64,000 nucleotides of DNA from Asparagopsis taxiformis (taxonomy: Eukaryota; Rhodophyta; Florideophyceae; Bonnemaisoniales; Bonnemaisoniaceae), in assembly GCA_030407315.1 (NCBI GenBank), contig JALQPE010000504.1, forward strand, positions 1-64,000, read 5' to 3'. The notes below the pieces were generated by a model. It searched no databases. It had not been told where the DNA came from and saw nothing but the letters and a program-made list of their open reading frames with translations. This document shows positions 1-45,094 of this stretch, piece by piece. Made by a program: the position numbers and the translations under genes. Numbering within the stretch: the stretch's first letter is position 1; every line of letters starts with the position of its first letter.

Positions 1-226
1 GTTTGCACTCTTTCGTGAGGAACACTGGTTGATATCGAACAGAACAGAGTATACGGGTACACAGCAAGGAAAGGTCTTGAAACCCGTAACCGGTGTAGGT
101 AATAAGTTGTGACGGATACGTGGTAGAGAAAAATTTTAAAAAGATTGTGATTCCCTGTCTTGAGTGTTGTACTGCACGGCCGCCATGGCGGCTGTGACTG
201 CAGTCACATAGGTTGTCACAGGTGCA

Positions 227-451
227 TCACGCTTACCAGGTGAGCGACATCCGGACGGCCACTGGACATGGGGATGTCCAGCTCAGATGCATTGCTGGCC
301 AGCCCAGAAATTGTAATATTTCGGGCAGAAAAAATATTGCAAAAAACATCGATTTGGGCGGTCGATTGTGCCGTACGGCACACCCCATCTCAAAAACATG
401 TTCACATGTGCATGTTTTTGAGAATAGCCCAAATTTTAATTCAAATCAGGA
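227..451 (+). repeat. Repeat family B, copy 1
   Basis: About 214-225 bp that recur at 1623-1836 and 6378-6591, with a fragment at 6766-6845. The copies share a core around GGATGTCCAGCTC, a central GTGCCGTACGGCAC palindrome and a hairpin with 12-bp arms (CTCAAAAACATG / CATGTTTTTGAG), ending near CAAATCAGG. This copy is more diverged at its left end. No coding capacity is seen. It looks like a small non-autonomous element. Confidence 0.75.
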
Positions 452-1343
452 TGCAGATATTCGCCTTCTAGCATTGTCAGAACACATTCGTATAACCACA
501 TTTGGAGAACCTGAGCCCAGAGCTATCGGTTTTGGCGGGAGCTAAGCCATATCTCATATAATCAGTAACTACTTCCCGCCAGCTGAGTGGTGGAACCCCT
601 GCAATTTCTACCAACGAGACATACGGGGTGTCAACTCGGCAATCGTATATGATTTGGGTGCTAAATTTATTCAAGAGACGAATGGGCTTCGAAAAGGAGC
701 CCAACAACGTTTTCTTGTGATCCATGGGTATAGGACTATTCTATTCTTCTCCAGGCTTCCACCATAGCCTCCTCCTCCACCTCCGTTAATGGAAAGAATA
801 TCCGAACCGCACCTCAGCATGTTCTTCTTGTGATCCATGGGTACTGACATCTCACATGCTCTCCAGGCTTCCACCATAGCCGCCTCCTCCGCCTCCGTTA
901 ATGGAAAGAATATCCGAACTGCACCTGAACATGTTTTTCTTCTCATCCATGGGTACTGACAACTCACATGTTCTCAACATGTGAGATGTCAGTACCGGAG
1001 AAGTTCTCCAGGCTTCCCCCGTAGCCACCTCCTCCACCTCCGTCTGTGGGAATCAACACAACATCACCACTGCGTCTTACCTCACATCAACATCTCTCCG
1101 GGATGAAAAACGGACGGACGACATAGGGTTTGTTCCGCTCCGTAGATGTTTAGAATCTTGTTAGAAAAAAGTAAACGAAAGAGAACTTCTCTTTCATTGA
1201 ATGACATCTCGTCCCTGTCGCAATATGTTCCATTTTCAATTTCTCGGGTTGCACACCCATCATGAGTGATCAAGGCCTGGATCAAACCCTCTTCGATGGA
1301 TAGGACAGATATTGGAAGGCTTTTAAGCCTGTGACCAAGCGGC
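452..1343. other. Intergenic, with a 113-bp tandem repeat
   Basis: No convincing gene. Positions 713-1050 hold three tandem units of about 112-113 bp, each with a TCCATGGGTA start, a CTCCAGGCTTCC segment and a run of CCTCC/CCACC triplets. Read on the minus strand the triplets give Gly-rich peptide, but the unit length is not a multiple of three, so the frame is lost between units. I regard this as a tandem repeat, not a glycine-rich gene. Confidence 0.55.
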
Positions 1344-1603
1344 CCCTATAAGAAAAGGAATATGTACCCCTGATATGCTTTAGATGAACCAATGATGTAC
1401 GTGATATCTCTACTGTACGCAAGAGATACTTCGCTGATGTCCGGGAGATGAGCGTATGGACATCTCCCGTCCATCATTGGTGTATCGCTATGCGGCCATC
1501 AGCTGAAGAGCAAATGTTCCTTATCCGTACATCAGAGGAACACCATGCATGTCATAGGGTTCATCATGCGGCCATCTTTGGTACATCTTTAAGGCTTACT
1601 GGG
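1344..1603 (+). repeat. Repeat family A, arm type L, solo copy
   Basis: A 260-bp repeat starting CCCTATAAGAAAA and ending at CTTACTGGGA. It is nearly identical to the left arm of the foldback element at 26136-26393 and clearly more diverged from the copy at 7284-7542. Only one arm is present here. No coding capacity is seen. Confidence 0.8.
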
Positions 1604-1622
1604 ATGCGTGGATGTAGGCAGC

Positions 1623-1836
1623 ACACGACCAACCTGAAATGGACGTCCGGTGGATGTCCAGCTCGATTGCACTGCTGGCCAGCCCAGAAATTCTAAAATT
1701 TCGGGCACAAAAAATCTTGCAAAAATCAACGATTTGGGCGGGTCGATTGTGCCGTACGGCACACCCCCATCTCAAAAACATGTTCACATGTGCATGTTTT
1801 TGAGAATAGCCCAAATTTTAACTCAAATCAGGGTGT
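1623..1836 (+). repeat. Repeat family B, copy 2
   Basis: A full 214-bp copy running from ACACGACCAACCTGAAAT to AATCAGGGTGT. Its length equals that of the copy at 6378-6591. It abuts repeat A on its left and lies 340 bp upstream of the ParB-dioxygenase start codon, so the gene sits between two direct copies of family B. Confidence 0.85.
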
Positions 1837-2175
1837 TCCCCGGATAAAGGGGTGCTCGCAGCCGCCCCAAAAGCCGCCTAGCTTGACAGCTGTAATTTTA
1901 ACACATTACACATCAAGGACACTGCCTGCTTCACGCCACCTCGTCAGGTTTCGAGAGCCCGACTCGGGCCCGTTCCGAACGGACACTCACATCTCGATTG
2001 CCTCTCTTGCATTCCAGCGGTCACGATAGGTGTGTACCTAACAAAATTTCGGTTGTATTGTGTTATTATTTCCAGCGATTGGCGTTTACGACCATTCTTC
2101 AACGTGAAACATACCATCCACATCACTCGAATACGTCAACGTCAACCATCTCTTTTCCTTTCCAACTCAACAACC

Positions 2176-5100
2176 ATGGCGGATACGCATTTCAGCAGTT
2201 TGTTTTCAACGGTTTGCGGCGATCAAGTGAGCGCGTCAGCGGAGTCGCGCGGACTCAAGCGCGGCGTCGATGTCAATTTGTTTGCGGACGTGGACGGTGC
2301 GGCTGTGCATATTGGGACGGCTTCGATGAGCACTGCTGGTGGCGATGTTGGCCTTCCGCGCACGCTGCACAACCACCAGCTGCCGGAAACCGACGAGGCG
2401 GACTATATCGTTGTGCGCAACATTGCGACTAAGGACAAGTTCAAGGACCTCCCGTTCCCGTACATGTTTGATGGCGCCGAGGGACCGCCGGAGACGATGG
2501 GTGGAGCATACGCCGCGGCGTTTTACCCTTGGGATACTCGGATGATGCGCCCCGCTGCGGAGGATGGCCCTAGCGACATTCGTACCCCTGCTGCAGCGTC
2601 AAACTTCAACGCAGCGACGAACCAGGCCAGCTCGGGACGGATGCCCAGTACCGCTCCGGCAGGCGAAATCACTGGTTCGGGGGGTACGAAGCATCCAGCA
2701 CGCTCCGTCCCGGTTTCGGGAGGCACGAAGCGCCCTGCTCGCTCTGCCAGAGCCTCCAGTGGAGGCACGAAGCACCCTGCTCGCTCCAACGTCACCGAAG
2801 CTACTACGCAGGACGTAACCGAGGTGGACGACGAACCGGAGGTGGCGGAAAGCATTCGTGAGCAGCAGGGGACGCAAATTACGGTGCCCAAGTTTGTGAC
2901 GTCGGATTACGTCGGAGAAGGAGCGACTGTGTTGGTGAGGCAGCTAGTGGAACCGGCCGTGACCCTTCGGGATGTGAAAGAAGACCACGTGGAGGACCTG
3001 CGCAACAATATGTTGGCTGTGGGGTATGTGAGCTCTTCGCGTATCACTGTGACGGTGCTGAGGTCGCAGAACACGCATCTGTCCGCCGACACGCGTCTGT
3101 TCCAGAATGGCAAATTCCATGCCAATGCGAACGTGACCGTGATCGACGGACTGCATCGTCTCAATGCTATGCATATCATTGCGGATGACTTCACGCGCCT
3201 CACCCGTGTGCACAGAACCAAGCTGCCACAGGACGCAAACCGCTTGCGCTGGGTTACTCAGCCTCTGGATGTGTACTACCTTCGCCGCAAGGACAACAGT
3301 GATCTTCAGCCTCATGAGATCATCCACAAGAGTGCAGAGTCGAACCATACGACTGGGACGCAACTGACGGAGCGCTCCCTGGTTCGAATCTTGTCGTCCA
3401 TCCAGCAGTTCATCCGTACGATTGCTGTTGCAAATAACGTGGAAAACGGTGGCGACTTGCGTGAGCCTGATGTCATCCGAACATTGTTCGAGGCGCAGTT
3501 CATGGGGATGATGAATTCAACGAACACGGCCCGGCGGTGGACGCGTTTGGCTATAGCAACGCTGAAGCATCCTGTTCTCGACGAAGTGTTGCGTGAGCTG
3601 AACAATTCTGAGCGCCGCAACGAGATTGGGATAACGCACCTGGACCACAAGATAGTGCGCGAGTTGCTGGAAGAAAACTTTGTCTTCGTCTTGCGTGGTC
3701 TTTCGGAGTACTTGAACCCTGCTCATGGTGGACGTCCGGATGGACGCTTTGACGTGAACGACTTCTATACATACGTCCGTCGCGTGACTGCAATAGCAAA
3801 TTCTCTGTACGCTGCGTTTGGGCGCCCAAAGAGTATTATGCGCAAGTCATTTCTGAGCACAGAGATGGCAATTGGGTCGGTTAAGCAGCCGAAGGAGTTG
3901 CAATGGCATCTCACCAATGCCATTGCAATGTATAGAGGGGACGACCGGAGCAGTGAGGTTCGAATGCGACGGAGAACCACGCGTTTACAGGATTTGGAAA
4001 CGAACTTGAAAGAGTTTTTCAATCCGACATTGAAGAAGAAGACTAAGGCTCGACGCAAACGCCGCCCTTCTGCTGCCAATGTGAGACTCACTCACAAGAA
4101 GCAGCGGAATGTCGAACATGAGCCTGCTTCGCATGGCATCCGCCGCCGTTCACAGCGACTTCGCTCGACGGGGAGCACACGCCTCGAGGAAGAAGAGCCG
4201 GTTGTGGTACAACAATCCGCCGGGGAAGAAGAGCAGGCCGTTGTTGATAAACCCACCGATCAACAACAAGCCACTGCTTCCGGTGATGAGGTTGACGAAG
4301 ACTCCGCCCGTTCCCCCGATTCTGCCGTTGAGATTGTCCCCCAAGATAACCAACGTGCTGGTGCGACTCCCTCCAACCAAGAATCTGTCCATACCGCTTC
4401 GGACGAGGAAGACAAACAGGGTGCAGATGAGGGCCATGTCAAAAGCAAGGGGGTCCGCGAAGTGACAATTACATTCACTGTTCCGGAAGGAGTGGAAGTC
4501 GATGAAGACGGTTACATCGTTCGTGACTCTCCATCTGAACACGACCTCCTGTTTGACGACCGTATGCCATCTCTTCCCGACGATTTCGAAGTCAAAGACC
4601 GAGCCGAAGGGCATCATCTGGCGCAGCGTCCCGCGGACGTCATCGCATCGGTGAGGGTTGGCTGTCTGCCCCCGATTGAGCTCAGGTTGTTATTGGAGAG
4701 TGTGGAAATCGATGAGGAGGGCAGAGAGGTGAGGTATTTGAAGCAAGTGGCGATGGACCCTGTGTTTGAGGGGCTGCATATTCCGGAACAACATCGGGCT
4801 CGTCATCTTGTTTTCGAGATCGAGACCATCTATCCGATGTTTTTCGCAGCGTGGAAGATGGCTGCCAAGGCGATGTGTGAGCCTACATCGACGTTTCTAC
4901 CCTCGAGGCTGGACTTCACCCAGGTTGCGCGAATGTCTACAAGCTGGAAGGATTCGTATGAGGCCGGCACTGGTATGGCGTACTTCCACAATTGCCGAAC
5001 GGAAATCAATGAGCGAGGGTATACGGTGATGCACAATTTCGCGGATGTAAGCTACCTCGATGCGTCGGACAAGTTCCCATTTGACTTGGGTCTCATGGAA

Positions 5101-5844
5101 GAAATTCCTAACCAGGAATTGTTTCGGTACTTCTTGGGAACATGGGAGGGTGAGGAGGTGCACAAGGACCCTGGGAACCGGCAGCTGTGGAGTCCCATTG
5201 TCAATACTGGGGACGATGAAACAGATGAGAAGAACCGGAATGAGGGGAGGGCTCGCTTCACGTCTACGCGCCACTGCCTGGTTGACTATGCCGAGAACGA
5301 TGAGACGCATATCGACCGGTTCAAGTTTGTGACGCGGCGAGCCCTGCTGGATGTGTGGTTGGGAATCCTTGTCCGGCTGATAGGGCTGGAGGAGTGCGGT
5401 TTACCGGGAGAAAAACTTGTCATGCCGGCATCTGGGGGACGGTTTTTGATAACGGGAAAGGGGTGTCCTCGGCAGGTCCCACACAATGATTTCCCTGTTC
5501 CTCCTCGCGACCGCAAAGATCAACTTCCGGGTTACTTTGTTATTGCCAACGGAGATGACCCATTCCCTATCTGGGTGTGTCCAGGGTCCCACAAGTACGT
5601 CTTTTCCAAAGCGCTGGAATTAGATATGTACGCCAAGACGATGAAGCTGAAGAAGGTAATCGTTCCGCCACGTTCAGTATTCATCGGTCACGGCCATGTA
5701 CAACATGCCGGGGCAGGGCATGTCGACAGAGTTGTGTCACACACGACAACGAGGTATCACACGTATTTCAGGAATGCGTCGTATCCGATTCCCGACAATG
5801 TTTCGTTTGGTTTCATCAGGCGGTTGGGATTCGAAGAAAAATAA
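2176..5844 (+). CDS. ParB-like domain / 2OG-Fe(II) dioxygenase-like fusion protein
   Basis: A 1222-aa intronless frame. I chose the ATG at 2176 (context ACAACCATGG) because the 48 upstream in-frame codons have no ATG and begin with GTG. Residues about 169-205 carry three copies of a GGTK(H/R)PARS repeat. Residues about 245-420 resemble the ParB/Srx fold: a DLRNNMLAVGY helix, then VIDGLHRLNA at residue 322, matching the ParB D-G-x-H-R-x-x-A signature. Residues about 600-780 are basic, then acidic, and low in complexity. The C-terminal part resembles a double-stranded beta-helix dioxygenase: PHNDF gives the HxD iron ligands (H1103, D1105), HVQHAG supplies a distal His (H1177), and R1193 could bind 2-oxoglutarate. 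ParB domains bind DNA or hydrolyse nucleotides, and this oxygenase fold hydroxylates bases, proteins or small molecules. A chromatin or DNA-modifying role is my inference. The substrate is unknown. Confidence 0.7.
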   Translation: MADTHFSSLFSTVCGDQVSASAESRGLKRGVDVNLFADVDGAAVHIGTASMSTAGGDVGLPRTLHNHQLPETDEADYIVVRNIATKDKFKDLPFPYMFDGAEGPPETMGGAYAAAFYPWDTRMMRPAAEDGPSDIRTPAAASNFNAATNQASSGRMPSTAPAGEITGSGGTKHPARSVPVSGGTKRPARSARASSGGTKHPARSNVTEATTQDVTEVDDEPEVAESIREQQGTQITVPKFVTSDYVGEGATVLVRQLVEPAVTLRDVKEDHVEDLRNNMLAVGYVSSSRITVTVLRSQNTHLSADTRLFQNGKFHANANVTVIDGLHRLNAMHIIADDFTRLTRVHRTKLPQDANRLRWVTQPLDVYYLRRKDNSDLQPHEIIHKSAESNHTTGTQLTERSLVRILSSIQQFIRTIAVANNVENGGDLREPDVIRTLFEAQFMGMMNSTNTARRWTRLAIATLKHPVLDEVLRELNNSERRNEIGITHLDHKIVRELLEENFVFVLRGLSEYLNPAHGGRPDGRFDVNDFYTYVRRVTAIANSLYAAFGRPKSIMRKSFLSTEMAIGSVKQPKELQWHLTNAIAMYRGDDRSSEVRMRRRTTRLQDLETNLKEFFNPTLKKKTKARRKRRPSAANVRLTHKKQRNVEHEPASHGIRRRSQRLRSTGSTRLEEEEPVVVQQSAGEEEQAVVDKPTDQQQATASGDEVDEDSARSPDSAVEIVPQDNQRAGATPSNQESVHTASDEEDKQGADEGHVKSKGVREVTITFTVPEGVEVDEDGYIVRDSPSEHDLLFDDRMPSLPDDFEVKDRAEGHHLAQRPADVIASVRVGCLPPIELRLLLESVEIDEEGREVRYLKQVAMDPVFEGLHIPEQHRARHLVFEIETIYPMFFAAWKMAAKAMCEPTSTFLPSRLDFTQVARMSTSWKDSYEAGTGMAYFHNCRTEINERGYTVMHNFADVSYLDASDKFPFDLGLMEEIPNQELFRYFLGTWEGEEVHKDPGNRQLWSPIVNTGDDETDEKNRNEGRARFTSTRHCLVDYAENDETHIDRFKFVTRRALLDVWLGILVRLIGLEECGLPGEKLVMPASGGRFLITGKGCPRQVPHNDFPVPPRDRKDQLPGYFVIANGDDPFPIWVCPGSHKYVFSKALELDMYAKTMKLKKVIVPPRSVFIGHGHVQHAGAGHVDRVVSHTTTRYHTYFRNASYPIPDNVSFGFIRRLGFEEK

Positions 5845-6101
5845 TCCCCAATGCTCCGCGCCGGTCTGCCAGGCAAAGTCAACCGGCACCTGTCAATGTT
5901 CGCCACAAGACAGTTGTTCCCATCCCGGTCAAGAAAGATCGTAGGCCGAAGACAGGGCAGCTCGGAATGATGCGGATGAAGACGACAGAACCTCGCAAGC
6001 CTATATCCTACACAATTAGTGGGGTCCCCGTGATGCCTATTCTGCCGGGAGATCCTGATTATAGTGGGGACGAAGAGGAAGAACAATTTTCCGACGGCTA
6101 G
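5845..6101 (+). other. Possible frameshifted C-terminal tail of the ParB-dioxygenase gene
   Basis: Immediately after the stop, the -1 frame stays open for 86 codons. It encodes a basic/proline segment (PAPVNVRHKTVVPIPVKK), then an ISYTISGVPVMP strand-like stretch and an acidic end (DYSGDEEEEQFSDG). The switch would occur in the A5 run at 5837-5841, two codons before the stop. It could be a genuine tail lost by a 1-nt deletion, a -1 ribosomal shift, or chance. Confidence 0.4.
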
Positions 6102-6377
6102 ATAGCTTAACAACTACTACTAGTAGTACTTTAGCAAACAATTATCAAGAATATAATCATCTCCTTTATCACTTTCAATCTATGAACCTACTATAATGTA
6201 CTTCCGTTCCATGCTTTCAAACTAGATTGTCCATTCCCTCGTGGGTTGGAGCATGATTTCCAGGACGATTCCCTCACATCTCTAGACTCGATGGTCTATG
6301 GTAGAAATAGCAGAACAATTGGGTTTGTACGTGCTTCATCGCCTACTTGCTTCCGGTAATGTGTGGACGTGCACGAT
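6102..6377. other. 3' flank of the ParB-dioxygenase gene
   Basis: AT-rich, with a CTACTACTAGTAGTAC inverted repeat at about 6112-6127 and no reading frame. It may contain the 3' UTR and polyadenylation region. No clear AATAAA was found. Confidence 0.4.
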
Positions 6378-6591
6378 ACACGATCAACCTGAAATGGACG
6401 TCCGGTGGATGTCCAGCTCAGATGCATTGCTGGCCAGCCCAAAAATTCTACAATTTCAGGCACAAAAAAATATTGCAAAAAACATCGATTTGGGCGGTCG
6501 ATTGTGCCGTACGGCACACCCCCATCTCAAAAACATGTTCACATGTGCATGTTTTTGAGAATAGCCCAAATTTTAATTCAAATCAGGGTGT
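6378..6591 (+). repeat. Repeat family B, copy 3
   Basis: A full 214-bp copy in the same orientation and of the same length as 1623-1836, with the same hairpin and GTACGGCAC core. It lies on the 3' side of the ParB-dioxygenase gene. Confidence 0.85.
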
Positions 6592-6765
6592 CTAATTTGG
6601 CCACAACGGCCCCAGGAACCGACCGCCGCCCGATCGGGGCTATCACTGGCTTCTATTAGCACCAACTGTAAGCCAAAATGGCGTCTCACGAAGGGTCGAT
6701 TTCAGGCTCAACACGTCAGGGACAGGTCTTGGTCCTTGTTTCATCATGGTCCCGCCCCACTCTCT

Positions 6766-6845
6766 CACGACCAACCTGAAATGGACGTCCGGTGGATGTC
6801 CAGCTCGATTGCATTGCTGGCCAGCCCAGAAATTCTAAAATTTCC
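6766..6845 (+). repeat. Repeat family B, 5' fragment
   Basis: The first ~80 bp of family B (CACGACCAACCTGAAATGG to AAATTCTAAAATTTC). The match then stops abruptly at CCGAAAAATC. Confidence 0.75.
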
Positions 6846-7283
6846 GAAAAATCAATTTGGTGGCCCAGCATCTCCTGTGCCGAAAATTCCCGCACTCACT
6901 TCTGATATACGTCTAGACGTGTTTCGCACTTGTACGCATCAGGGAAGGCGTCACGGAAGGTTGAGACTACGCTACTTGTGTACCGCGTCGTCTGAAATAG
7001 CGAGTAGTGTTTGTTGTATAGCCTATACAACTGAGTTGTGGAGTATGCGTCTAGTGGTTTGTAAAGCTTGCAGAACGGGATAGGGATGTGGGTGGCCCTA
7101 TTTTATGAATACATGAGTACCAATATTCAGGGTTGACAAAGCGGAAAGTCATAGGCTCGTACATGTTTGAGATTGCATAGTGGAGAAAATATTTACATCG
7201 AAATTTACATGGAGCAGATGGAGGTTTTAAGGATGAGGTATGAGAGGAAGAAAATTCTTCTGTGGTATGAGGATGTGTTCTGT
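6846..7283. other. Unassigned intergenic
   Basis: I see no gene, repeat or strong structure here beyond short chance frames. Confidence 0.4.
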
Positions 7284-7542
7284 CCCTATAAGAAAATGAA
7301 TATGTACCCAGGATATACCTCTGATGAACCTATGATGTACGTGATATCTCTACTGTGCGCAAGAGATACTTCGCTGATGTCCGAAAGATGAGCGTAAAGA
7401 CATCTCAGGTCCATCTTTGGTGTATCGTTATGCGGCCATCAGCTGAAGAGCGATTGTTCCTTATCGGTACATCAGAGGAACACCATGTATGTCATATGTT
7501 CATCATACGGCCATCATTGGTACATCTTCGAGTCTTACTGGG
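7284..7542 (+). repeat. Repeat family A, arm type R, solo copy
   Basis: About 259 bp from CCCTATAAGAAAATGAATATG to GTCTTACTGGG. It is nearly identical to the reverse complement of the right arm at 26507-26765, and more distant from the L-type arms at 1344 and 26136. Confidence 0.8.
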
Positions 7543-8180
7543 TGTGGAGGGATGCAATCTTGGGATGGTACAGGGGGAGGTGGAAATGTACGGAGTGCGG
7601 GTTTAGAATGGAGTGTGATTCGGAGAGGAGTGCCGACAAGCATATTATGGGGATTGGGGAGACGCTGCGGGGTGTTGGGGTAGTGAGGGCGGAGGAAGTG
7701 TTTAGGTGGGACTGTAGGAGGGTGCGGTTGAAGGCGCCGAGAGGAGGGGGTTTTAGGAAAGTGAGGAGAAAGAGGGGGAGGGGGTGGCGTCTGTTCTGGC
7801 TGTGGTGAGTGAGGATGTGATGGAGAAGAAGGGAGTTATTGTATTTGGGGAGGGAGGGGAGTGGGAGGAAGGGTGCGAAGTGGGGGGTTGATATGTGTTT
7901 CAGAGCGGGGAGGTTTCTGGGGAGACGGCGGGGGAGCGGGAGAGTGGGCCGGTGGTGGTGGTGTATACGGTATCGAAGATGCGGATGGGCGTGGGGGCAT
8001 GGAGCAGCTGAGGGAGGGAGGTGTGGAGCAGGTCGGGTACGGGATGGGGAGTGAGAGGTTTTGGAAGAGTAAGCTGCAGGGGAAGTTTGTGTAGAGGGCG
8101 AAGGAGAGGGGTTGAGGGTAGAGGAGAGAGGGTATTGAAGAACAATACGTTGCAAAGGTGTTGGGGGAGAGCATGGTCGA
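7543..8180 (+). other. Strongly G-biased tract, possibly decayed coding DNA
   Basis: About 640 bp in which the plus strand is dominated by G, with many GGG and GGGG runs and few C. A short frame at 7485-7808 starts inside repeat A and contains a possible zinc-binding cluster (KCTECGFRMEC followed by a His). Other frames contain gene-like pieces broken by stops. I do not recognise a family. G-quadruplex potential on the plus strand is obvious by eye. Confidence 0.4.
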
Positions 8181-8519
8181 GGAGATAGGGGGTGTTTTTC
8201 CCTATTCTGAGGTAGTATGAGGACTGGTTATACGAAATCTGTACGGTAGAGCAGAAAAGTAGGTATGGAATGGAGGTGTGCACCGTGGAAGCGGGGATAG
8301 GTAGCTGAAAATGCGTGCTAGAGTGGTATTGGGGGTGTTTGAGGTACAGTACGGGGGAGGTGAGCACCAACAGGAAGGGGGTATGAGCGAGAGGATGAAA
8401 AAATTAAAGACAAAATTGGAGTCGACCGACAAGGAAAAATAGAGTGGTCGCCGTGATGGATGCGGACATCCATGTCGAGCACGGCGGCAGAAATTTCTGG
8501 GGTCGAAATTTTTGAATTT

Positions 8520-8740
8520 CTGAACCGGCGCCCGTCCTAGGTGGACATAGACATGGCGGAAGTCCATCCCAAGGGGGACATCCGTGGTACTAGAAACAAT
8601 GAATGTCGTCCTAGTAATACTAGACGTACTAGACCGCATGGACGTCCGGTTCTAGGCGGACATCCAAAAATACTGGAGAACATGGACGTCCGCCTAGTAA
8701 TACTAAGTGTACTAGAGGTTGTGGACGTCCGCGTCCATTT
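8520..8740. repeat. Degenerate repeat array with GGACGTCC and CTAGTAATACTA motifs
   Basis: Repeated words GGACGTCCG, GCGGACATCC, CCTAGTAATACTA and TACTAGA alternate in direct and inverted orientation. The unit is imperfect and roughly 50-110 bp. No protein is supported. It could be the end of an unrecognised DNA transposon. Confidence 0.5.
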
Positions 8741-11700
8741 CCGAGAACACAGACGCATGCCAGCGTCGGTTATGAAGAAAATGGAGAATGCTAGAAGTGA
8801 GGTTTTGCTGCAGCGAACTGTCCATGGACAGTCATTACTCCATATATGAAATAAAAGGAATTCTCTATTCTCATTCGAGACAGTGAACAATATATTATAA
8901 ATTTTTAAATCATTTCACCCATACTTCAATGTACGAATTGGAAAATCAATGAGATAAATTTATCCTCTCCTCAGTATTTATATGCAATCCATAGTCCTCC
9001 GATGCATCATCTTGATTGCAGCAGTTCACTTGAATCCTGAATATATTTTCCGTACCTTTCCCAATCGTTCTTAAATGGGTCCCTAAGAACATATCTAGGT
9101 ACCAATACGGTCACCCTCTTTTTAACTGAACCAATTCAAAATATTGAAGTTCTGAGAATCCTGAGGAATTGTTTTATTGTCTCTGAAGATTTCAATACAT
9201 CTCGAAACGTTGAAAATGTTTAATGTTTGCCATTTAATTAATACAAGAACTCAAATTGATAAGTGTTTTTTGTATATTCTCTCACAATTGAAAGAATTTG
9301 CAATTCTGGAGCTCGGTTGAAAGCAGAATATGCTCTTTGAAGGAATTACGCGGCTGTGAAACTCCAAAGATCGCTAGAAAGAATATTTGAGGCATGGGAA
9401 GAGTGTGATTATTCGATATTTTGGTGTCAATTTATGCATCTTACAATCCAGTAACTCTCAAGTAGAATCTCCTGCATTGGAAAGAATTACACGTGAAAAT
9501 TTTTTACTTTTCTACCCTGAAATTGGGAAATATGTTTCTATGGATCCATGGTACCTACAAGCACTGAAACTGGTAGTCGGTCGAGCTTGCATAGAGCATA
9601 GCTGTAAACCAATTTTCAATTTCCTAGATGTTTTGGCGTTTTATCTCTCGACGTTTTCCAAACACCTAGAAACTTAATTCTTCTTTTTAAGATTTGATTT
9701 GACTTGTCGATTTAATGGCTTGATTATTGAAATGACCAAATTTCAAATTATAATAGGAAAAACTCATAAATCGTTCAATAATTTAAAATTCATAAGCACT
9801 ATGGATCCTTCTCAGTCTGCTTACTGAATACCTATCTAGACTTCGTGAGTGCAGTTTATAATGCCGCAATAATAGATATGAAAATGATATGTTCACACAG
9901 GGACTTCAATTGGAATATGCGGTGCATCCAAATTACAATATATCAAAAGCCAGCTATCCTCCAAATTGTTACCTAAGCGTGGAAGGAGCGCACAAAGAGC
10001 CTATTGACCGCTTTTATTACAGGAAAAGGAATAAAACTAATGATGAGACCAGTTTTCTACCGTCTACTATCTCTCTTAGTTGAGGAATCTCCAGGAAAGC
10101 TTCCCATGTAGTCCTTCTGTAACCATAAGGTAAGAATGGGTTTTGTCAAAACGACTAAAATGCTAAGATCTCTATCATGGGATAAGCGACAGCCTCTTAT
10201 GCAGTTCAATATATTATTACCGCATCGCGCCCTTCGGATGCATGGTATGGCAGAGAGAACGGTGCATGTTGACGTTTTGCGGTACGTGAATATTGGGTGG
10301 TTTACTCGTGAGTTATACGCATGTTCCCTTCTATTGGAAGTCTGTTTCAGACAGCATATTTTGCATGATTGTTCGGGCTATCAAGACTGGCGGACTGCTG
10401 GACGCTGCTACTTCGCGAGCCTGACTCTTCCTCACCAACCATGATACCATCCCTTCCGTTCCATGAGCCTTCGTTGATAGTTCTAGAGCAACTTGAGCTT
10501 CGAACTTCATTTCTTCTTAATGCCTTCCTCTCTTTGATCACAGAATCAAATCGGTTAGAGCTCTAGCGGTCAGCAATTTGTCCTACTTTTCCTCAAAAAT
10601 ACAATCGTATTAATACTTTCGGAAAACATTATTTCATTACCGTTATCATCTCAGGTGCATGCATCATTAGAGTTCCTCCTTTTCTTCCCAAGTTCTTCTC
10701 CCCTTCCAATTCGAGTCATTATTTGGATTTTAACCAGTCCATTTTCGTCTGCAGTGTATCCGTCTACCACTGGAAGTATTATGAGCATGTTTTTGAGTTT
10801 GCTGGACATTTTTCCTGAAATGGTACTCCCTTAGCGGCAATATCATCTACGTATATGTGCGTATACACAGCACTCAGTGCTCTACTCTACCCATTATATT
10901 TCACCAGTTTGAGCGCAGACCAGAACAAATATCTGTAAGAGAACTGTCTTCACGAGATAGCTCTACATTCGAAACATATGTTCCAGATAAAACATGTATC
11001 ACATTTTATCACCTTACACTCCTGAAAGGAACATAATCGCGAAGGGAGAACACATAGAGCCGAGCACCGGATTAGGAGTATGTTACAGGGTGGATTGTAT
11101 ATCTTGATAATTTTTAGCAAACTATGTAGTTCTCCAGGAAATTGATCTCTACTAGATTTTCCATTACAGCTCTTCTGCAAATGCACTTCCATAATGCTTC
11201 TTATGGCCATTTGTTTCAGATAGAATGTTTTCTTATCCACGTGTGATTCAGAGTTTGGGGAAATTTAAATGCCTATCGATCAGTGTGCCAGACTGCAGAC
11301 AGTTCATTCAAAGTACAGATCCCACATTAGACCATAGCGTAGGATATTTCTGCACGAAAGGGCACATGACGGACGCCGTGAAATTTAGTTTATCCAAAGT
11401 GCTATCAGAGTTTACTCAGGTACGGGTCTCAGGATCCCATGGGCAATGGGCTGGGATGCATCCTACGGAACTCAAGTTTGGATCTAGTCCTGGAAGTAGT
11501 GGTAAAGAAAGTTCCAGAACGAATCAAACATCCTTGCGTCATTGGCCAGATGAGATGTGTATGATGACTCATTACATAGAGTAATTTCGTCACGAACTGC
11601 GGTGGACTCGATTGAAGCTTGGATGAAATCGTTACGAAAAGCGTTTGATCAGGCTAGAAACCGATTGTAGCAGGTAAAATATCTTGAAAGAGGAGAAAAA

Positions 11701-26135: not shown

Positions 26136-26765
26136 CCCTATAAGAAAAGGAATATGTACCCCTGATATGCTTTAGATGAACCAATGATGTACGTGATATC
26201 TCTACTGTACGCAAGAGATACTTCGCTGATGTCCGGGAGATGAGCGTATGGACATCTCCCGTCCATCATTGGTGTATCGCTATGCGGCCATCAGCTGAAG
26301 AGCAAATGTTCCTTATCCGTACATCAGAGGAACACCATGCATGTCATAGGTTCATCATGCGGCCATCTTTGGTACATCTTTAAGGCTTACTGGGAAAAGC
26401 TTTTCCCAACAGAGACAAATAGGCTGATACAAACGAAACAGGAGCGCGCAAGTTCCTCACCAAAGTCCTGCTTTCTAAAATGTTATCCCATGTAAGTTCT
26501 GGTGCTCCCAGTAAGACTCGAAGATGTACCAATGATGGCCGTATGATGAACATATGACATACATGGTGTTCCTCTGATGTACCGATAAGGAACAATCGCT
26601 CTTCAGCTGATGGCCACATAGCGATACACCAAAGATGGACCTGAGATGTCTTTACGCTCATCTTTCGGACATCAGCGAAGTATCTCTTGCGCACAGTAGA
26701 GATATCACGTACATCATAGGTTCATCTGAGGTATATCCTGGGTACATATTCATTTTCTTATAGGG
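26136..26765. mobile_element. Foldback/TIR element built from two family-A arms
   Basis: The left arm (26136-26393) and the right arm (26507-26765, inverted) are each about 258 bp and start with CCCTATAAG. A spacer of about 113 bp contains the perfect palindrome GGGAAAAGCTTTTCCC (26392-26407). A GA-dinucleotide run at about 26085-26100 lies just outside. The arms differ from each other more than each differs from a solo copy elsewhere in the window (1344 and 7284). No transposase is encoded. I could not define a target-site duplication. Confidence 0.7.
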
Positions 26766-30693: not shown

Positions 30694-32340
30694 TCAGCGT
30701 TGATCATGGATGGTACGTTGCTGACTACGTCCACTGCGTTTCCGCTTACGTACTATTACTGCGACGTCCAACTTGCGCTCCTCTTTCACCTCAACGCCAT
30801 CCTTGACCTGATCCAGCCGCTCCATCCCACACGTTCCCTCAATAGCACCATGCAAGTGCGCATCAACGTACAATCTCCAAGCCCTCTTCAAGTCCACCGC
30901 GACACCCAGCCCAGCCTCGTAAATCTTTGCCAGACCACACATCGCGTCCACGTCAAACTTCTGGACCGCCTCCTCATATAGCGCTCTCGCTTTTATGAAA
31001 TCCGCATCAACACCCTTTCCGTCTCGATACATCTCTGCTAAACACGTCTTACTTGCGACATTCCCCTTGCGTGCCGCCGATTCATACAGCGTTACCGCAC
31101 GTCGCAAATCCCGTCGAATGCCCTCGCCGTTCTCCAGCATGCATGCTAAATTGTACATTGCAAAAGCATTCCCACTCTGCGCTGACCGCTCATACAGCTC
31201 AAAAGCGCGCTTCTTATCCGTCCCCACACCATTTCCGTTGTCGTACAGCGTCGCGAGATTGTTCATACAATCGGCGTCGCCGTAATCAGATCCCGACTTG
31301 TACAGTCGAAAAGCTTCTGCAATGTCCTTCTGCACGCCGCGTCCCTCCTCAAACATGACACCAAGATCATTCTTTGCTGAGATATCGCCGCCCATAATTG
31401 CCTCTTCGTACAACTTTGCTGCACGCGCCTCGTCCCTCTCCACCCCGTGTCCCGTCTCGTACATGATTGCGATATTCGTTTTGCCGACTGCTAGTCCTCC
31501 ATCCGCTGCCTCCCGATACAATTGCAACGCCCTTTTCAAGTCCTGTTGCACACCATGCCCATTCTCATACATGTTTCCAAGATGAACCTTGGCCTCCAGC
31601 GATCCCGAGGCTGCCGCGCGACGAAACAGCGCCACTGCTTGTTCATAGTCTCTTTCGCTGCCATCCGCATCGCGATACTTTTTTCCCAGCTGAAGTCCGG
31701 ACGTGATATCTCCCGCCAATGCGCAGCGTTTGTACCATACGCTTGCCTCTTCGCTGTTCGGCTGGCAGCCCTTTTCATAAAGTTGTGCCAATTTCCGCAT
31801 GAGCGGTACCTGCGCAACGTCTGTCGAAACGCGTGACGATTCACAATCGGCAATCACTGCCCATTGATCCGTGTGTTCGCGCAGCAAGCTCTGGACGTCG
31901 TCGAGCTGGCGACTCATAGCTGCAATTTTTTGTGCGAGCAGCGAGCTTTCAACAGCTGCAGTGTGACGTGCACCGCGTGTCTTTTTGCGTGATGCGGAAG
32001 CTAGTTGAACATCTTCCGTCTGATTTGATGCGTCTGCAATGCGCCATTTCAGGTTCATAGACGGCATTTGTACCGAGTCGTCGCGTGACGGAGAGCCATA
32101 ATCCACGAGATTTCCCTCCAGAAAGCGAACTTCGCAAATCGTGCGTGGATGACCAAAGCTCTCATGGTACTCGATGCGCCCGCGATGTTCAATGCCATTG
32201 CGCCAAATCTCGAGCACGCACGCTTTCCACCAAGAATTTGTTGGGTTTTCCTTCTTGCGCGTGCCCCAGATCACGACCGGCCACAATACCTCCACGGTCA
32301 TGCCCACTTCGACCATCTCCGGCAGACTTAGCCCTGCCAT
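30694..32340 (-). CDS. Sel1-repeat protein with an N-terminal Tudor-like basic domain
   Basis: 548 aa from the ATG at 32340 (MAGLSLPEM); codons upstream have no ATG. Residues about 1-85 (MVEVGMTVEVLWP... KACVLEIW... GRIEYHESFGH... EVRFLEGNLVDYG) look like a small beta-barrel or Tudor-like reader, by pattern only. A short coiled coil follows (about 140-160). From about residue 195 to 510 there are roughly nine Sel1-like repeats of 36 residues, with the A-x-x-x-L-G-x-x-Y-x-x-G-x-G-V pattern (for example LGNMYENGHGVQQDLKRALQ). Sel1 repeats form an alpha solenoid that scaffolds protein complexes. The basic tail KRKRSGR could be a nuclear signal. There is no signal peptide, so it is cytosolic or nuclear. 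The partner is unknown. Confidence 0.85.
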   Translation of the reverse strand: MAGLSLPEMVEVGMTVEVLWPVVIWGTRKKENPTNSWWKACVLEIWRNGIEHRGRIEYHESFGHPRTICEVRFLEGNLVDYGSPSRDDSVQMPSMNLKWRIADASNQTEDVQLASASRKKTRGARHTAAVESSLLAQKIAAMSRQLDDVQSLLREHTDQWAVIADCESSRVSTDVAQVPLMRKLAQLYEKGCQPNSEEASVWYKRCALAGDITSGLQLGKKYRDADGSERDYEQAVALFRRAAASGSLEAKVHLGNMYENGHGVQQDLKRALQLYREAADGGLAVGKTNIAIMYETGHGVERDEARAAKLYEEAIMGGDISAKNDLGVMFEEGRGVQKDIAEAFRLYKSGSDYGDADCMNNLATLYDNGNGVGTDKKRAFELYERSAQSGNAFAMYNLACMLENGEGIRRDLRRAVTLYESAARKGNVASKTCLAEMYRDGKGVDADFIKARALYEEAVQKFDVDAMCGLAKIYEAGLGVAVDLKRAWRLYVDAHLHGAIEGTCGMERLDQVKDGVEVKEERKLDVAVIVRKRKRSGRSQQRTIHDQR

Positions 32341-33009
32341 GCTGCTGCGCAGATGGGTCGTCGTGGAATAGTGCACGTGTTGGCTGGCTGGTGCGGTTAT
32401 TTCACCGGTCGAATGCGTGGCATGGAGGGTGAAGGTCGACAGGCATGGCGGAAACAGGAAATCACCAGTGATGTTGCCGAGTGGAGGATTCGGGCATTAT
32501 GTGCTTGGCATCGGTGGTTTATCGATCACGGCCATGCGCAGTGTCTCGGTTAACACTGTTGTGTTATGGTTCAGCCCAATGTGCTGGAATGCCGATCGTG
32601 TTGAATTGCGACAAGTGGGGTTGATGTCGACCATTGCGTTGTTTAGTTTATGAGGTGGAAGGATTAGTCAGGAGATTCTGGCCGTTGGACAGTGCACGAT
32701 GTGATGACGTTTGAGATATAAAGCGTTTTCAACCTTTTTATTGGATGCCGAGCAACAGAAATGCGCTGAATTGGTGCTGTTTTCGGCCAACTACCAAACT
32801 GGCTGGTGGAAGCAGTCAGAAAACTTTTACAAGGATGTTGATCTGCGTCTCCAGCACTGTCGCCGTTCAGCGTACTGCCATCGCATCCCTGATCGGCAAA
32901 CTACTGCAGTTTCAGCCATTGTATCTATCGCTAGAGAAGCACACTATCGAATTTCTTAAACGGCCTCAGGGCAGTGTTTGATTCAACTTGTCCTAATTCT
33001 AATTCGTAA
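32341..33009. other. Intergenic between two minus-strand genes
   Basis: Contains the putative promoter of the Sel1 gene and the 3' region of the LPMO-like gene. I see no repeat or additional gene. Confidence 0.4.
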
Positions 33010-42849: not shown

Positions 42850-43093
42850 AATAATTAACCGCAGTGCGTCACTGCCTGCAACCGAATCATAAGAAACGTG
42901 TCTAACACTTTCTGACAAACAGCCCTCAAAAGAAACAATTCAGAATCCCACATCACTTCGAAGTAAGTGGGTCTGGAAACTCACTGGATAAGGAACGAAC
43001 ACCTTCCTGAATCAATACCTCTGCACAAGTGGTTATATAACCCTGCATTCAACTCTGTCGAATTACACACATCATCAAGCCTTGGATTCCAAA

Positions 43094-45094
43094 ATGAGTT
43101 CAAAACCGTACGCCCCTCCTGCCCCGGGAACCAGAGCGGCTAAATATCTCATGATCAAAGATGTAAAACTTTGTGACCACCCCATGGCGAAATCATGTAT
43201 TAAGGAACTGGAACTAATCGATCCGGACTCAAAGGTCGTCGATTACGTCATATATGTCATGACAAAGATACTACAAGGAGATGCACTACCGGAAGACAGC
43301 AAGAACGAACTGTTTAATGATCTCACGGCTGACTTACTGGGAGACGAAGCAGTCTTAGCTGAAAAAAAGCTGTTTTACATCCTACGCAACGTACTATTAA
43401 TGGTCGGAGCAGAAGTTCGCAGCGGCAAAGGCAACCCAATCGTCACTGCAGTGCTAGAAACTATATTTCCTGCAGGCACAGAAGCAAACGCGCACGTTAC
43501 AGCCAGACAGAAGGCAATATCTGAGCGCCAACGAAACGGAGACGCGTTCTCAATCGATAACGCCCGAGCCCGAGAGGAATCAAGCCACGAAGCAAACGGA
43601 ACGAAGGAACCGAATAAGTCACCGATGAAGGGCCCTATAACGCGCCAACACACGGCTAATGAAAGTGACGTACAGGATTCGTCATCACCACCAGCTAACC
43701 TCCCCAATGCTGAAGATATAGTGACCAACATCGAAACTCCAGAGAAGAGGAAACCCCGAAAGAATAATTCCCAAACCCAATCGAGGAAACAGAACTCCCG
43801 TGAAACGCTGGATGGCGACAATAGTGACCAATATCCAAGCGAAAGCGAACCGGACGATGAGACTTATGTCCCTACGGATACCAAAAACTGGAAAGGACGC
43901 AGACAAGTCGAGCAGTCCAGATCACAGTCATATGACTTAGCCAGCAACAAAAGTCGCGTTGCGCTAATGGTGAAGGACAAATGCTTTACCGGAGCACCAG
44001 ACACTGGAACGGACTTCTATACGATGTCAAAAACATTCGAAGCGGCCTGCATTCAGCAAGAGCTACCACTAGATGAAGCTACAGACGTCCTATGGCATTG
44101 CTTAGACGGAGACGCCAAGCGATTCTACTTTGAGCACATACAAGGAAAGAGAATGACTCTTACGGAGACATTTGGCCTCTTAAAAAGCCAATTCGATACC
44201 TTGCATCATCAAAGCCAAGCCCAATCATATGTCAACAGCATCACCATGCAAGCCATCCGATGCGAAAAAGGATGCAACGATATTGAAGCGCTACGAATCG
44301 TCCATCAACGGCTGTCTGAAACGTTACCGAAGTGTGGACAGATCTGTCGCAGCAGCGACGAGTACAAAATATTGACTCTCGAGCGAATCGTCAAATACGA
44401 ATCATGGGCAGCGAACGTAATAACTACCCGATCGGCTAACCCCAACCTCGCGTACTCGAGCTTCTACACAATGCTTTGCACCGCCGCAAATTTACACGTT
44501 GAGAAATCAGCTATCAGTTCGGCTAATGACGAACAGACCACAGAGGAGAACAAGCAGATTGCAGCAATTCCGATACATTATGGGTCAACATACGGCGTGA
44601 ATGACTCAAAACACTATGGGAATAGAAGCGGGGAAGCCAAGAAGATTTTCCATCGACGTGGAAACCGACTCGAAAACCGCTCGCAAAATTTCCGGAACAA
44701 CCGGCGCACTCCAGAGCAGATGGAAACTCGGAAGTCTCGCACCCGTTGTCACTACTGCGGCGAGCTTGGCCATTGGCGAGAGGAATGCAAGAACAGAGAT
44801 CGGACATTGGCCGACGTCGTTCGAGCACGCCTAAGCGAGAAAGCAGACCTGCAGCCTCTCACAGCCTTCGCTGAAGTTCTCGGAGAAATTGTACAACACG
44901 AGGACGAGTACCACGAATACGTCACCATGTGTTCGCCCGAATCACGCATAGAAGAAAGCCAAAATAGTCACGTGGAACTCATGAACGACGTATTATACAG
45001 CAACGAAGAAGCGGAAGCATGCGCGACAGATATATTCAACCAAATCGCAGCCGATTCTGGGAGTCGACAACATTTTCAGGATGGGGGAGCTTAA
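43094..45094 (+). CDS. Copia Gag with CCHC zinc knuckle
   Basis: 666 aa from the ATG at 43094 (MSSKPYAPPAPG); the upstream in-frame codon is TTG. The N-terminal ~150 residues are helical. Residues about 150-290 are polar and disordered (NNSQTQSRKQNSRE). A capsid-like helical domain spans about 300-490. A zinc knuckle CHYCGELGHWREEC (C-x2-C-x4-H-x4-C) at about residue 556 binds element RNA. The C terminus is acidic. It forms the particle shell. The frame overlaps Pol by 76 nt, with Pol in the -1 frame, so expression would need a frameshift or reinitiation. I found no canonical slippery heptamer in the overlap. Confidence 0.75.
   Translation: MSSKPYAPPAPGTRAAKYLMIKDVKLCDHPMAKSCIKELELIDPDSKVVDYVIYVMTKILQGDALPEDSKNELFNDLTADLLGDEAVLAEKKLFYILRNVLLMVGAEVRSGKGNPIVTAVLETIFPAGTEANAHVTARQKAISERQRNGDAFSIDNARAREESSHEANGTKEPNKSPMKGPITRQHTANESDVQDSSSPPANLPNAEDIVTNIETPEKRKPRKNNSQTQSRKQNSRETLDGDNSDQYPSESEPDDETYVPTDTKNWKGRRQVEQSRSQSYDLASNKSRVALMVKDKCFTGAPDTGTDFYTMSKTFEAACIQQELPLDEATDVLWHCLDGDAKRFYFEHIQGKRMTLTETFGLLKSQFDTLHHQSQAQSYVNSITMQAIRCEKGCNDIEALRIVHQRLSETLPKCGQICRSSDEYKILTLERIVKYESWAANVITTRSANPNLAYSSFYTMLCTAANLHVEKSAISSANDEQTTEENKQIAAIPIHYGSTYGVNDSKHYGNRSGEAKKIFHRRGNRLENRSQNFRNNRRTPEQMETRKSRTRCHYCGELGHWREECKNRDRTLADVVRARLSEKADLQPLTAFAEVLGEIVQHEDEYHEYVTMCSPESRIEESQNSHVELMNDVLYSNEEAEACATDIFNQIAADSGSRQHFQDGGA

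Follow-up and report, generated by a model that had tools for sequence, protein, structure and literature searches.

A gene with ParB-like and 2-oxoglutarate dioxygenase-like motifs travels with a predicted methyltransferase-SET gene in a high-copy Plavaka-type transposon of the red alga Asparagopsis taxiformis

TET+ Plavaka transposons of Agaricales fungi combine a transposase with a TET/JBP dioxygenase (Kojima 2025, PMC12730594). That study reports TET/JBP from DNA transposons, Plavaka among them, and SET from HarbingerS and MuDR elements, the VANDALs being MuDR elements, and proposes that the transposon TET/JBP counters silencing in fungi. The matches reported for the giant-repeat genes of Amoebidium include red algae and dinoflagellates (PMC11244446). 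In the literature searched, transposons carry single epigenetic enzymes (TET/JBP, SET or DNMT), one at a time. Herein, we analyzed a stretch of 64,000 nucleotides from the red alga Asparagopsis taxiformis (assembly GCA_030407315.1, contig JALQPE010000504.1, positions 1 to 64,000, forward strand; hereafter the window), in which a long open reading frame (ORF), named gene D, had been read in a first-pass annotation as an intact host-like gene joining a ParB-like domain to a 2-oxoglutarate (2OG)-Fe(II) dioxygenase-like domain. Gene D belongs to a Plavaka-type DNA transposon that is bounded by terminal inverted repeats (TIRs) and holds four genes, A to D; it is thus a gene of a high-copy mobile element, and the host-like label could not be kept.

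The source genome (141 Mb, 3156 contigs) was searched for copies of gene D, and comparison of their flanks revealed a common unit around it. Homology among the copies stopped at inverted repeats, CGTCTGTGTTTTCGG... and ...CCGAGAACACAGACG, which were imperfect (85% alike over 47 bp); Plavaka elements likewise have TIRs. The terminal 30-mer of the TIR occurred at 2745 genomic sites with at most 2 mismatches and at 0 sites in the control. Six copies with both ends (C1790, C2142, C474, C1956, C52, and C88) measured 19.4-22.3 kb. Markers of 40 bases, searched genome-wide with up to 3 mismatches (reversed control, 0), were found 926 times for the ParB-like part of gene D, 908 times for its 2OG part, 964 times for the methyltransferase gene, and 990 times for the transposase gene. 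All four markers stood in order in C52:39208-59251, with a TA/TA duplication, and in C88:1468-22241, without a target duplication. An exact 2-bp target duplication, within the 2-3 bp typical of Plavaka, was present at 8 of 13 insertions (chance 2e-7, at 1/16 each), comprising C1790 and C2142 but not C474 and C1956, together with 6 of 9 further insertions; copies with one end only (C504, C1937, C254, C581, C619, C2246, and C1666) were left out of this test. Sorted by content, the duplication was seen in 3 of 7 elements with gene markers and in 5 of 6 shorter elements. The transposon termini, CGTCTGTG..CACAGACG, are neither the TGT..ACA nor the CATCA..TGATG of fungal PlavakaA and PlavakaB, and the element was therefore assigned to neither group.

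The window contig begins inside the transposon, just upstream of the start of gene C, and the window accordingly holds gene D but none of the other three genes, A, B, and C. Window positions 1-904 matched positions 2053-2973 of another copy (L015), stopping 26 bases before the gene C frame (L015:3000), and the window contained a single TIR match, the 3' TIR itself (0 mismatches; expected number of matches, 0). A reader of this part alone, with its long open frame and no transposase, could take gene D for a single host chromatin gene, as it was first read. About 900 copies, TIRs, target duplications, and a transposase within the same unit argue against this, and with such copy number and element structure we rejected the host-gene reading, to which we attach virtually no credence.

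Three long ORFs lie beside gene D in the transposon, namely gene A (a frame of 1036 amino acids (aa) in C1790), gene B (794 aa, P0004), and gene C (1084 aa, P0005). Gene A is the Plavaka transposase: PF18759 matched at 87.8 bits against a cut-off of 26.3 (E 1.1e-24), the match being made on 845 of the 1036 aa, the part present in one locus. Gene B is coiled-coil-like, its Pfam coiled-coil matches all being below cut-off. Gene C matched N6_N4_Mtase (PF01555, 57.2 bits against a cut-off of 26.7, E 3.1e-15) and, in the same protein, SET (PF00856, 29.6 bits against 22.4, E 1e-6), and on these profiles its product is predicted to combine a DNA amino-methyltransferase with a SET domain. The motifs DPPY and DPFSGT were found in P0005, and by their order, DPPY first, gene C is most likely a beta-class N6-adenine enzyme. 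The adenine methyltransferases DpnA and CcrM were among its closest solved relatives by sequence, and its NCBIfam matches, all below cut-off, were headed by adenine-specific enzymes. Among the best 7991 protein candidates scored, the methyltransferase-SET fusion also occurred in P0006 (99% identical), P0007, P0008, P0009, and P0010, and P0011 had the methyltransferase alone. P0010 carries an N-terminal VYLIDGAHRCMAV stretch ahead of its methyltransferase-SET part, recalling the ParB-like motif of gene D, at a similarity that was not statistically significant.

The SET fusion also suits a reading in which gene D acts on protein, as a 2OG hydroxylase or demethylase of histones or other proteins opposing the SET half of gene C, and the acidic and basic tracts of gene D fit such a role. 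However, gene D matches neither JmjC nor any other Pfam family, and the repeated DNA palindromes described below suggest a DNA target. We consider a protein substrate unlikely.

Viral and genome-contig relatives of gene C (64 viral loci from the best 600 candidates, and 12 genome loci) covered the methyltransferase part only, query residues 502-843. A ParB match lay in the flank of 5 of the 64 viral methyltransferase loci, in two cases within a frame that also has a DPP[YF]/NPPY motif. A virus or provirus reading of the element was weakly disfavored, no capsid, polymerase, or packaging family having scored above cut-off in the four ORFs.

In the window, gene D runs from an ATG to its stop as a single open frame (Table 1), as had been claimed, and its motifs VIDGLHRLNA (residues 322-331), PHNDF (residues 1102-1106), and HVQHAG, the arginine R1193, and the three GGTK(H/R)PARS repeats were all present in the translation. 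Its description as intact did not survive comparison, since the window copy stops short whereas the other 7 of 8 genomic copies read reach 1264-1318 aa, with 1318 aa in 4 of the 8. It had also been called the only long host-like gene in the first 30 kb; the next ORF of at least 400 aa does start only at 30694, but gene D is transposon-borne. In the genome, all 38 scored matches to gene D, the best 38 of 4299 first-look candidates, were stop-free (the window copy itself and 37 others, 99% identical to it across residues 1-1221), and judged from these matches the open frame goes beyond chance.

About 5.8 billion proteins were searched for relatives of gene D and the best 7984 candidates were scored, yielding P0002 and P0003, which are full-length (34-35% identical; E 1e-67 and 5e-65, respectively), and a further fragment, P0013; P0012 represents the same gene and was left out of the residue count. 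Alignment revealed that P0002 and P0003 retain both halves of the protein and lack the GGTK(H/R)PARS repeats. H1103, D1105, H1177, and R1193, for which a conservation check had been proposed, were identical in all four aligned sequences (window, P0002, P0003, and P0013), giving each the HxD...H iron triad and distal arginine of 2OG-Fe(II) dioxygenases. Because the full-length relatives keep both halves and these residues are identical in 4/4, the two-part architecture of gene D is that of a real, conserved protein. The longest contig for P0002 (34% identical to gene D) and for P0009 (28% identical to gene C) was in both cases exactly 15726 bases; because of this identical length the two probably lie on one contig, which would put the C/D pair together in a distant relative.

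Table 1. Positions in the window of gene D, its motifs and repeats, and the transposon features around it
Feature	Position	Strand	Basis
Plavaka-type transposon, 3' part of one copy	1..8755	+	Flank comparison of copies
Outer 5' module, with palindrome at 368 and inverted repeat at 388	272..450	+	Repeat comparison
Module 5' of gene D; 16-bp palindrome 1748-1763, 13-bp inverted repeat 1770-1782/1793-1805	1623..1836	+	Repeat comparison
Gene D, ParB-like + 2OG-Fe(II)-like protein, 1222 aa in window copy	2176..5844	+	ORF call; stop-free genomic matches
39-bp tandem repeat encoding three GGTK(H/R)PARS units	2676..2787	+	TRF
ParB-like region, residues 236-400; VIDGLHR motif at 3139-3168	2881..3375	+	Motif-level only
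2OG-Fe(II)-dioxygenase-like region, residues 1000-1205	5173..5790	+	Residue conservation
Predicted iron/2OG residues	H1103 5482-5484; D1105 5488-5490; H1177 5704-5706; R1193 5752-5754	+	Invariant in 4/4
Module downstream (3') of gene D, with palindrome at 6504 and inverted repeat at 6525	6378..6591	+	Repeat comparison
3' TIR, ends ...CACAGACG	8726..8755	-	TIR match reaches 8709

A module of ~215 bp was found both 5' and 3' of gene D, and the flank of a further 5' module is common to the one preceding gene C in C1790. Comparison of eight modules (three in the window and five in C1790) revealed a core that was invariant in 8/8 amid diverging flanks. The core consists of a palindrome, 14 bp long in 8/8 modules (GTGCCGTACGGCAC) and 16 bp long in 7/8 (TGTGCCGTACGGCACA), and a 13-bp inverted repeat. 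In C1790, the palindromes lie upstream of gene B (-6.5 kb), gene C (-2.5 kb), and gene D (-1.3, -0.9, and -0.4 kb), and three more lie downstream of gene D (+4.3 to +5.3 kb). With at most 3 mismatches, the 57-bp core had 7863 genomic copies, about eight per gene-bearing copy, some of them in shorter elements. The core is an obvious candidate for the binding site of a DNA-binding protein encoded by the transposon, and the ParB-like domain would fit as the binder of its palindrome.

Accessory proteins of CACTA transposons bind subterminal repeats, and gene D might likewise be a transposition co-factor that binds such repeats, with a 2OG domain that is structural or inactive. The repeats around gene D and towards the 3' end fit this, and the transposase class is CACTA-related (Kojima, PMC12730594). 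However, the H, D, H, and R residues are identical in 4/4 divergent relatives, and the 2OG stretch has 0 nonsynonymous changes, though among only 3 changes in score-chosen copies. We hold the co-factor role to be quite improbable.

Our preferred reading, to which we give somewhat less than an even chance, is that gene D encodes an anti-silencing eraser and forms a pair with gene C, the writer, both being supplied by the transposon itself. The two genes would form the transposon's own epigenetic kit. Gene C would add methyl marks to DNA, most likely at N6 of adenine, and perhaps to histones too. Either its own N-terminal ParB-like and helical part or one of the partners, B and C, would recruit gene D to the palindromic cores, where methyl groups would be oxidized by the C-terminal iron/2-oxoglutarate domain of gene D. 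As a result, the promoters of genes B, C, and D might stay open, or transposition-competent copies might be set. With a DNA methyltransferase-SET fusion as companion in the same transposon, the earlier guess that gene D encodes an enzyme modifying chromatin or DNA becomes more credible, although gene D matched no Pfam family.

A genome search with PF00145 for a C5-DNA methylase was empty, compared with 10 of 14 positive control genomes, in a search that had no in-genome positive control and ignored introns. Because no C5-methylase was detected, a writer and eraser of amino-methyl marks is plausible, and weight shifts towards amino-methyl marks made by gene C or towards histone methyl marks. 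If the C5-methylase is truly absent, gene D is unlikely to be mainly an eraser of host 5-methylcytosine. A bolder form of the eraser reading, which we regard as rather unlikely, is a private epigenetic system built from prokaryote-type parts, in which a writer joining an N6-adenine methyltransferase to a histone methyltransferase and a ParB-like, site-recognizing 2OG eraser would both be addressed to parS-like palindromes, up to about eight per element; through its roughly 900 copies, the system would have imposed an epigenetic layer other than 5-methylcytosine on the host.

A writer and a putative oxidase within one element would also suit hypermodification, in which gene C methylates bases of the element and gene D oxidizes them further, yielding a protective or identity mark as in phage cytosine/thymine pathways. 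Hypermodification has been raised for the transposon TET/JBP, with phage pathways cited (Kojima, PMC12730594). However, no glycosyltransferase or other follow-up enzyme was recognized among the four genes, and the phage path described in that paper uses C5-methylated cytosine, whereas gene C is predicted to be an amino-methyltransferase. We regard hypermodification as doubtful.

Several observations weigh against the eraser reading, and the first concern the domain names. The activity of gene D and its binding to the cores are predictions from sequence, and beyond motifs no fold or profile backs ParB or 2OG in gene D. In the ParB-like part, D-G-L-H-R was invariant in 3/3 aligned gene D sequences, but the profile match was weak and no better than that of control windows. 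With a ParB profile built from Spo0J and ten similar phage sequences, hhalign aligned the start of the N-terminal domain in register at a score of 18.4 and a probability of 1.6%. Column shuffling reached this score in 2 of 200 controls, and windows from the unrelated C-terminal part of the gene D alignment scored 18.2 and 18.6. HMMER gave the ParB match 0.4 bits, which was not significant. As for the dioxygenase call, HxD...H...R was conserved in 4/4, but no curated 2OG profile matched. We also give little weight to the 16-residue distance from the second histidine to the arginine, presumably nearer to that of JBP, TET, and AlkB than to that of phytanoyl-CoA hydroxylase. AF2 models had a mean pLDDT of 34.7 for the ParB-like part and 30.9 for the 2OG-like part, from alignments of only 3 and 4 sequences for the two halves, and both were unusable. 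Because the profile searches were weak or empty and the AF2 models unusable, the ParB domain and the 2OG fold are motif-level readings.

Pfam gave zero matches to gene D or its relatives in searches at E up to 10 (one of them at E up to 1), Tet_JBP and JmjC included. NCBIfam returned no 2OG model, only two unrelated ones (E 0.11 and 0.32), PHROGs a single unnamed family (phrog_8185, E 3.8), and PADLOC no match. Sequence searches of the PDB gave nothing or unrelated entries (symerythrin, E 0.26), and phage tblastn gave five capsid-type or unannotated matches only (E 7-9). In IMG/VR and GTDB contigs, no relative of gene D was found among 47, 112, and 49 viral stretches and 65 genome stretches matching short peptide patterns, and a viral scan seeded with Spo0J found nothing. 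A PF12851 search of the genome for TET/JBP gave no match, but its controls and those of a PF05063 search were silent, and both searches were uninformative.

The cores and the state of the genes add further points on the same side. One core is opposite in orientation to gene C, three lie behind gene D, and none precedes gene A; from this placement and orientation, the cores are therefore not simple promoters. Shorter TIR-bounded elements hold the core without gene markers among the matches listed. The target duplication was missing at 5 of 13 insertions, and among the seven that carry gene markers it was missing at four. Each of the genes A, B, and C was unbroken in 2 of the 3 elements read, with A and B split in C1937 and C split in C2142, and most of the gene B and C copies compared had indels, while gene D had none over 3660 bases in 7/7 copies against the window.

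Eight copies of gene D differed by 24 synonymous and 18 nonsynonymous distinct changes (ratio 0.28, P 3.5e-5). This excess is weak evidence because the copies were picked by best protein score, which favors synonymous change and open frames. Within gene D, the 2OG-like stretch had 3 synonymous and 0 nonsynonymous differences among these score-chosen copies; the ParB part (2 synonymous and 4 nonsynonymous) and the helical part (1 and 3) revealed no constraint. For gene C, eight copies not chosen by C differed by 8 synonymous and 6 nonsynonymous changes (ratio 0.27, P 0.014), and for gene B the counts were 4 and 11 (ratio about 1.0). Constraint is thus suggested for gene C, possible for gene D, and not seen for gene B.

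Marker listings also revealed two layouts of the transposon, in which gene C is either divergent from gene D (C-D about 5.5 kb) or co-directional with it (C-D about 3.9-4.3 kb, with an A-C distance of about 7.9 kb that is 7.55 kb in C213); examples are C110, C119, C135, and C213 against C254, C120, and C1790. This suggests an inversion polymorphism or two subfamilies. Elements of 10-12 kb (G000:C12:264414-275483, C14:6193-17321, C49:13859-25551, and C20:597-10640) share the TIRs, 2-bp duplications, and core palindromes and have no zero-mismatch A, C, or D marker among the matches listed; they would be non-autonomous or sibling elements. With 908-990 markers, full copies of ~20 kb, and a genome of 141 Mb, the family perhaps makes up ~1/10 of the genome, a rough figure, since many copies are incomplete or run off the end of a contig. 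A 260-bp stretch at window positions 1344-1604, inside the transposon copy, and again at 26136-26395 (99.6% alike) was unmatched in the flanks of seven other copies compared and is perhaps a small mobile insert.

Elsewhere in the window, a Sel1-repeat protein at 30697-32376 (-), with 8 matched stretches (E 7.8e-55), is likely a host gene. A retrotransposon-like zinc-knuckle frame and an integrase-core frame lie at 43082-47241 (+), both matches being below the Pfam cut-off, and an integrase core, again below the cut-off, and RVT_2 share one 1597-aa frame at 58480-63270 (-). At 53562-55622 (-), a 687-aa frame joins a partial phosphofructokinase (residues 49-146) to an abutting central region of acetyl-CoA carboxylase (residues 144-464), which may be an odd fusion or an effect of assembly or introns.

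The combination of Plavaka, an amino-methyltransferase-SET fusion, and a ParB/2OG-like gene was not found in the literature searched, which was thin on subscription journals. What appears new here is that one high-copy element joins a predicted methyltransferase-SET protein, an eraser presumed to be oxidative, and repeated palindromes that share an invariant core. Like TET+ Plavaka (PMC12730594), each element has a Plavaka transposase and a dioxygenase or dioxygenase-like gene, with 2-3 bp target duplications. Unlike it, gene D has a ParB-like N-terminal part and no Tet_JBP or other Pfam match, the termini (CGTCTGTG..CACAGACG) are not those of the fungal elements, and gene C is present, whereas the consulted sections of that paper name no DNA methyltransferase for the element. 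The transposon also resembles the Plavaka giant repeats of Amoebidium, large intron-poor gene clusters with a Plavaka transposase in a protist (PMC11244446, 2024); these name tyrosine recombinases, and the terms 'ParB' and 'SET domain' are absent from the main text of that report.

Some retrotransposons also encode a DNA methyltransferase of their own, an enzyme of the C5-cytosine type (de Mendoza et al. 2018, PMC5890265), whereas here an amino-methyltransferase-SET fusion is predicted in a DNA transposon. The proposed mode of action is closest to that of VANDAL/VANC (Sasaki et al. 2023, PMC10398659), where an element protein strips silent marks at the rapidly diverging noncoding repeats of its own family, although VANC is described as combining sequence-specific binding with mark loss rather than the dioxygenase and methyltransferase predicted here. 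Bdelloid N4CMT (PMC8885841, 2022) likewise couples a bacterial-type amino-methyltransferase to a chromatin domain, and its host, as may also be true here, lacks C5 methylases. N4CMT, however, is described as belonging to the host, having a chromodomain and contributing to transposon silencing, whereas gene C is owned by a transposon and carries SET. If active, the transposon would offer a natural origin for adenine methylation in a eukaryote without a detected C5 methylase. Two questions thereby become testable: whether a transposon can operate a writer/eraser circuit of its own, and whether DNA methylation of the bacterial type reached eukaryotic genomes on mobile DNA.

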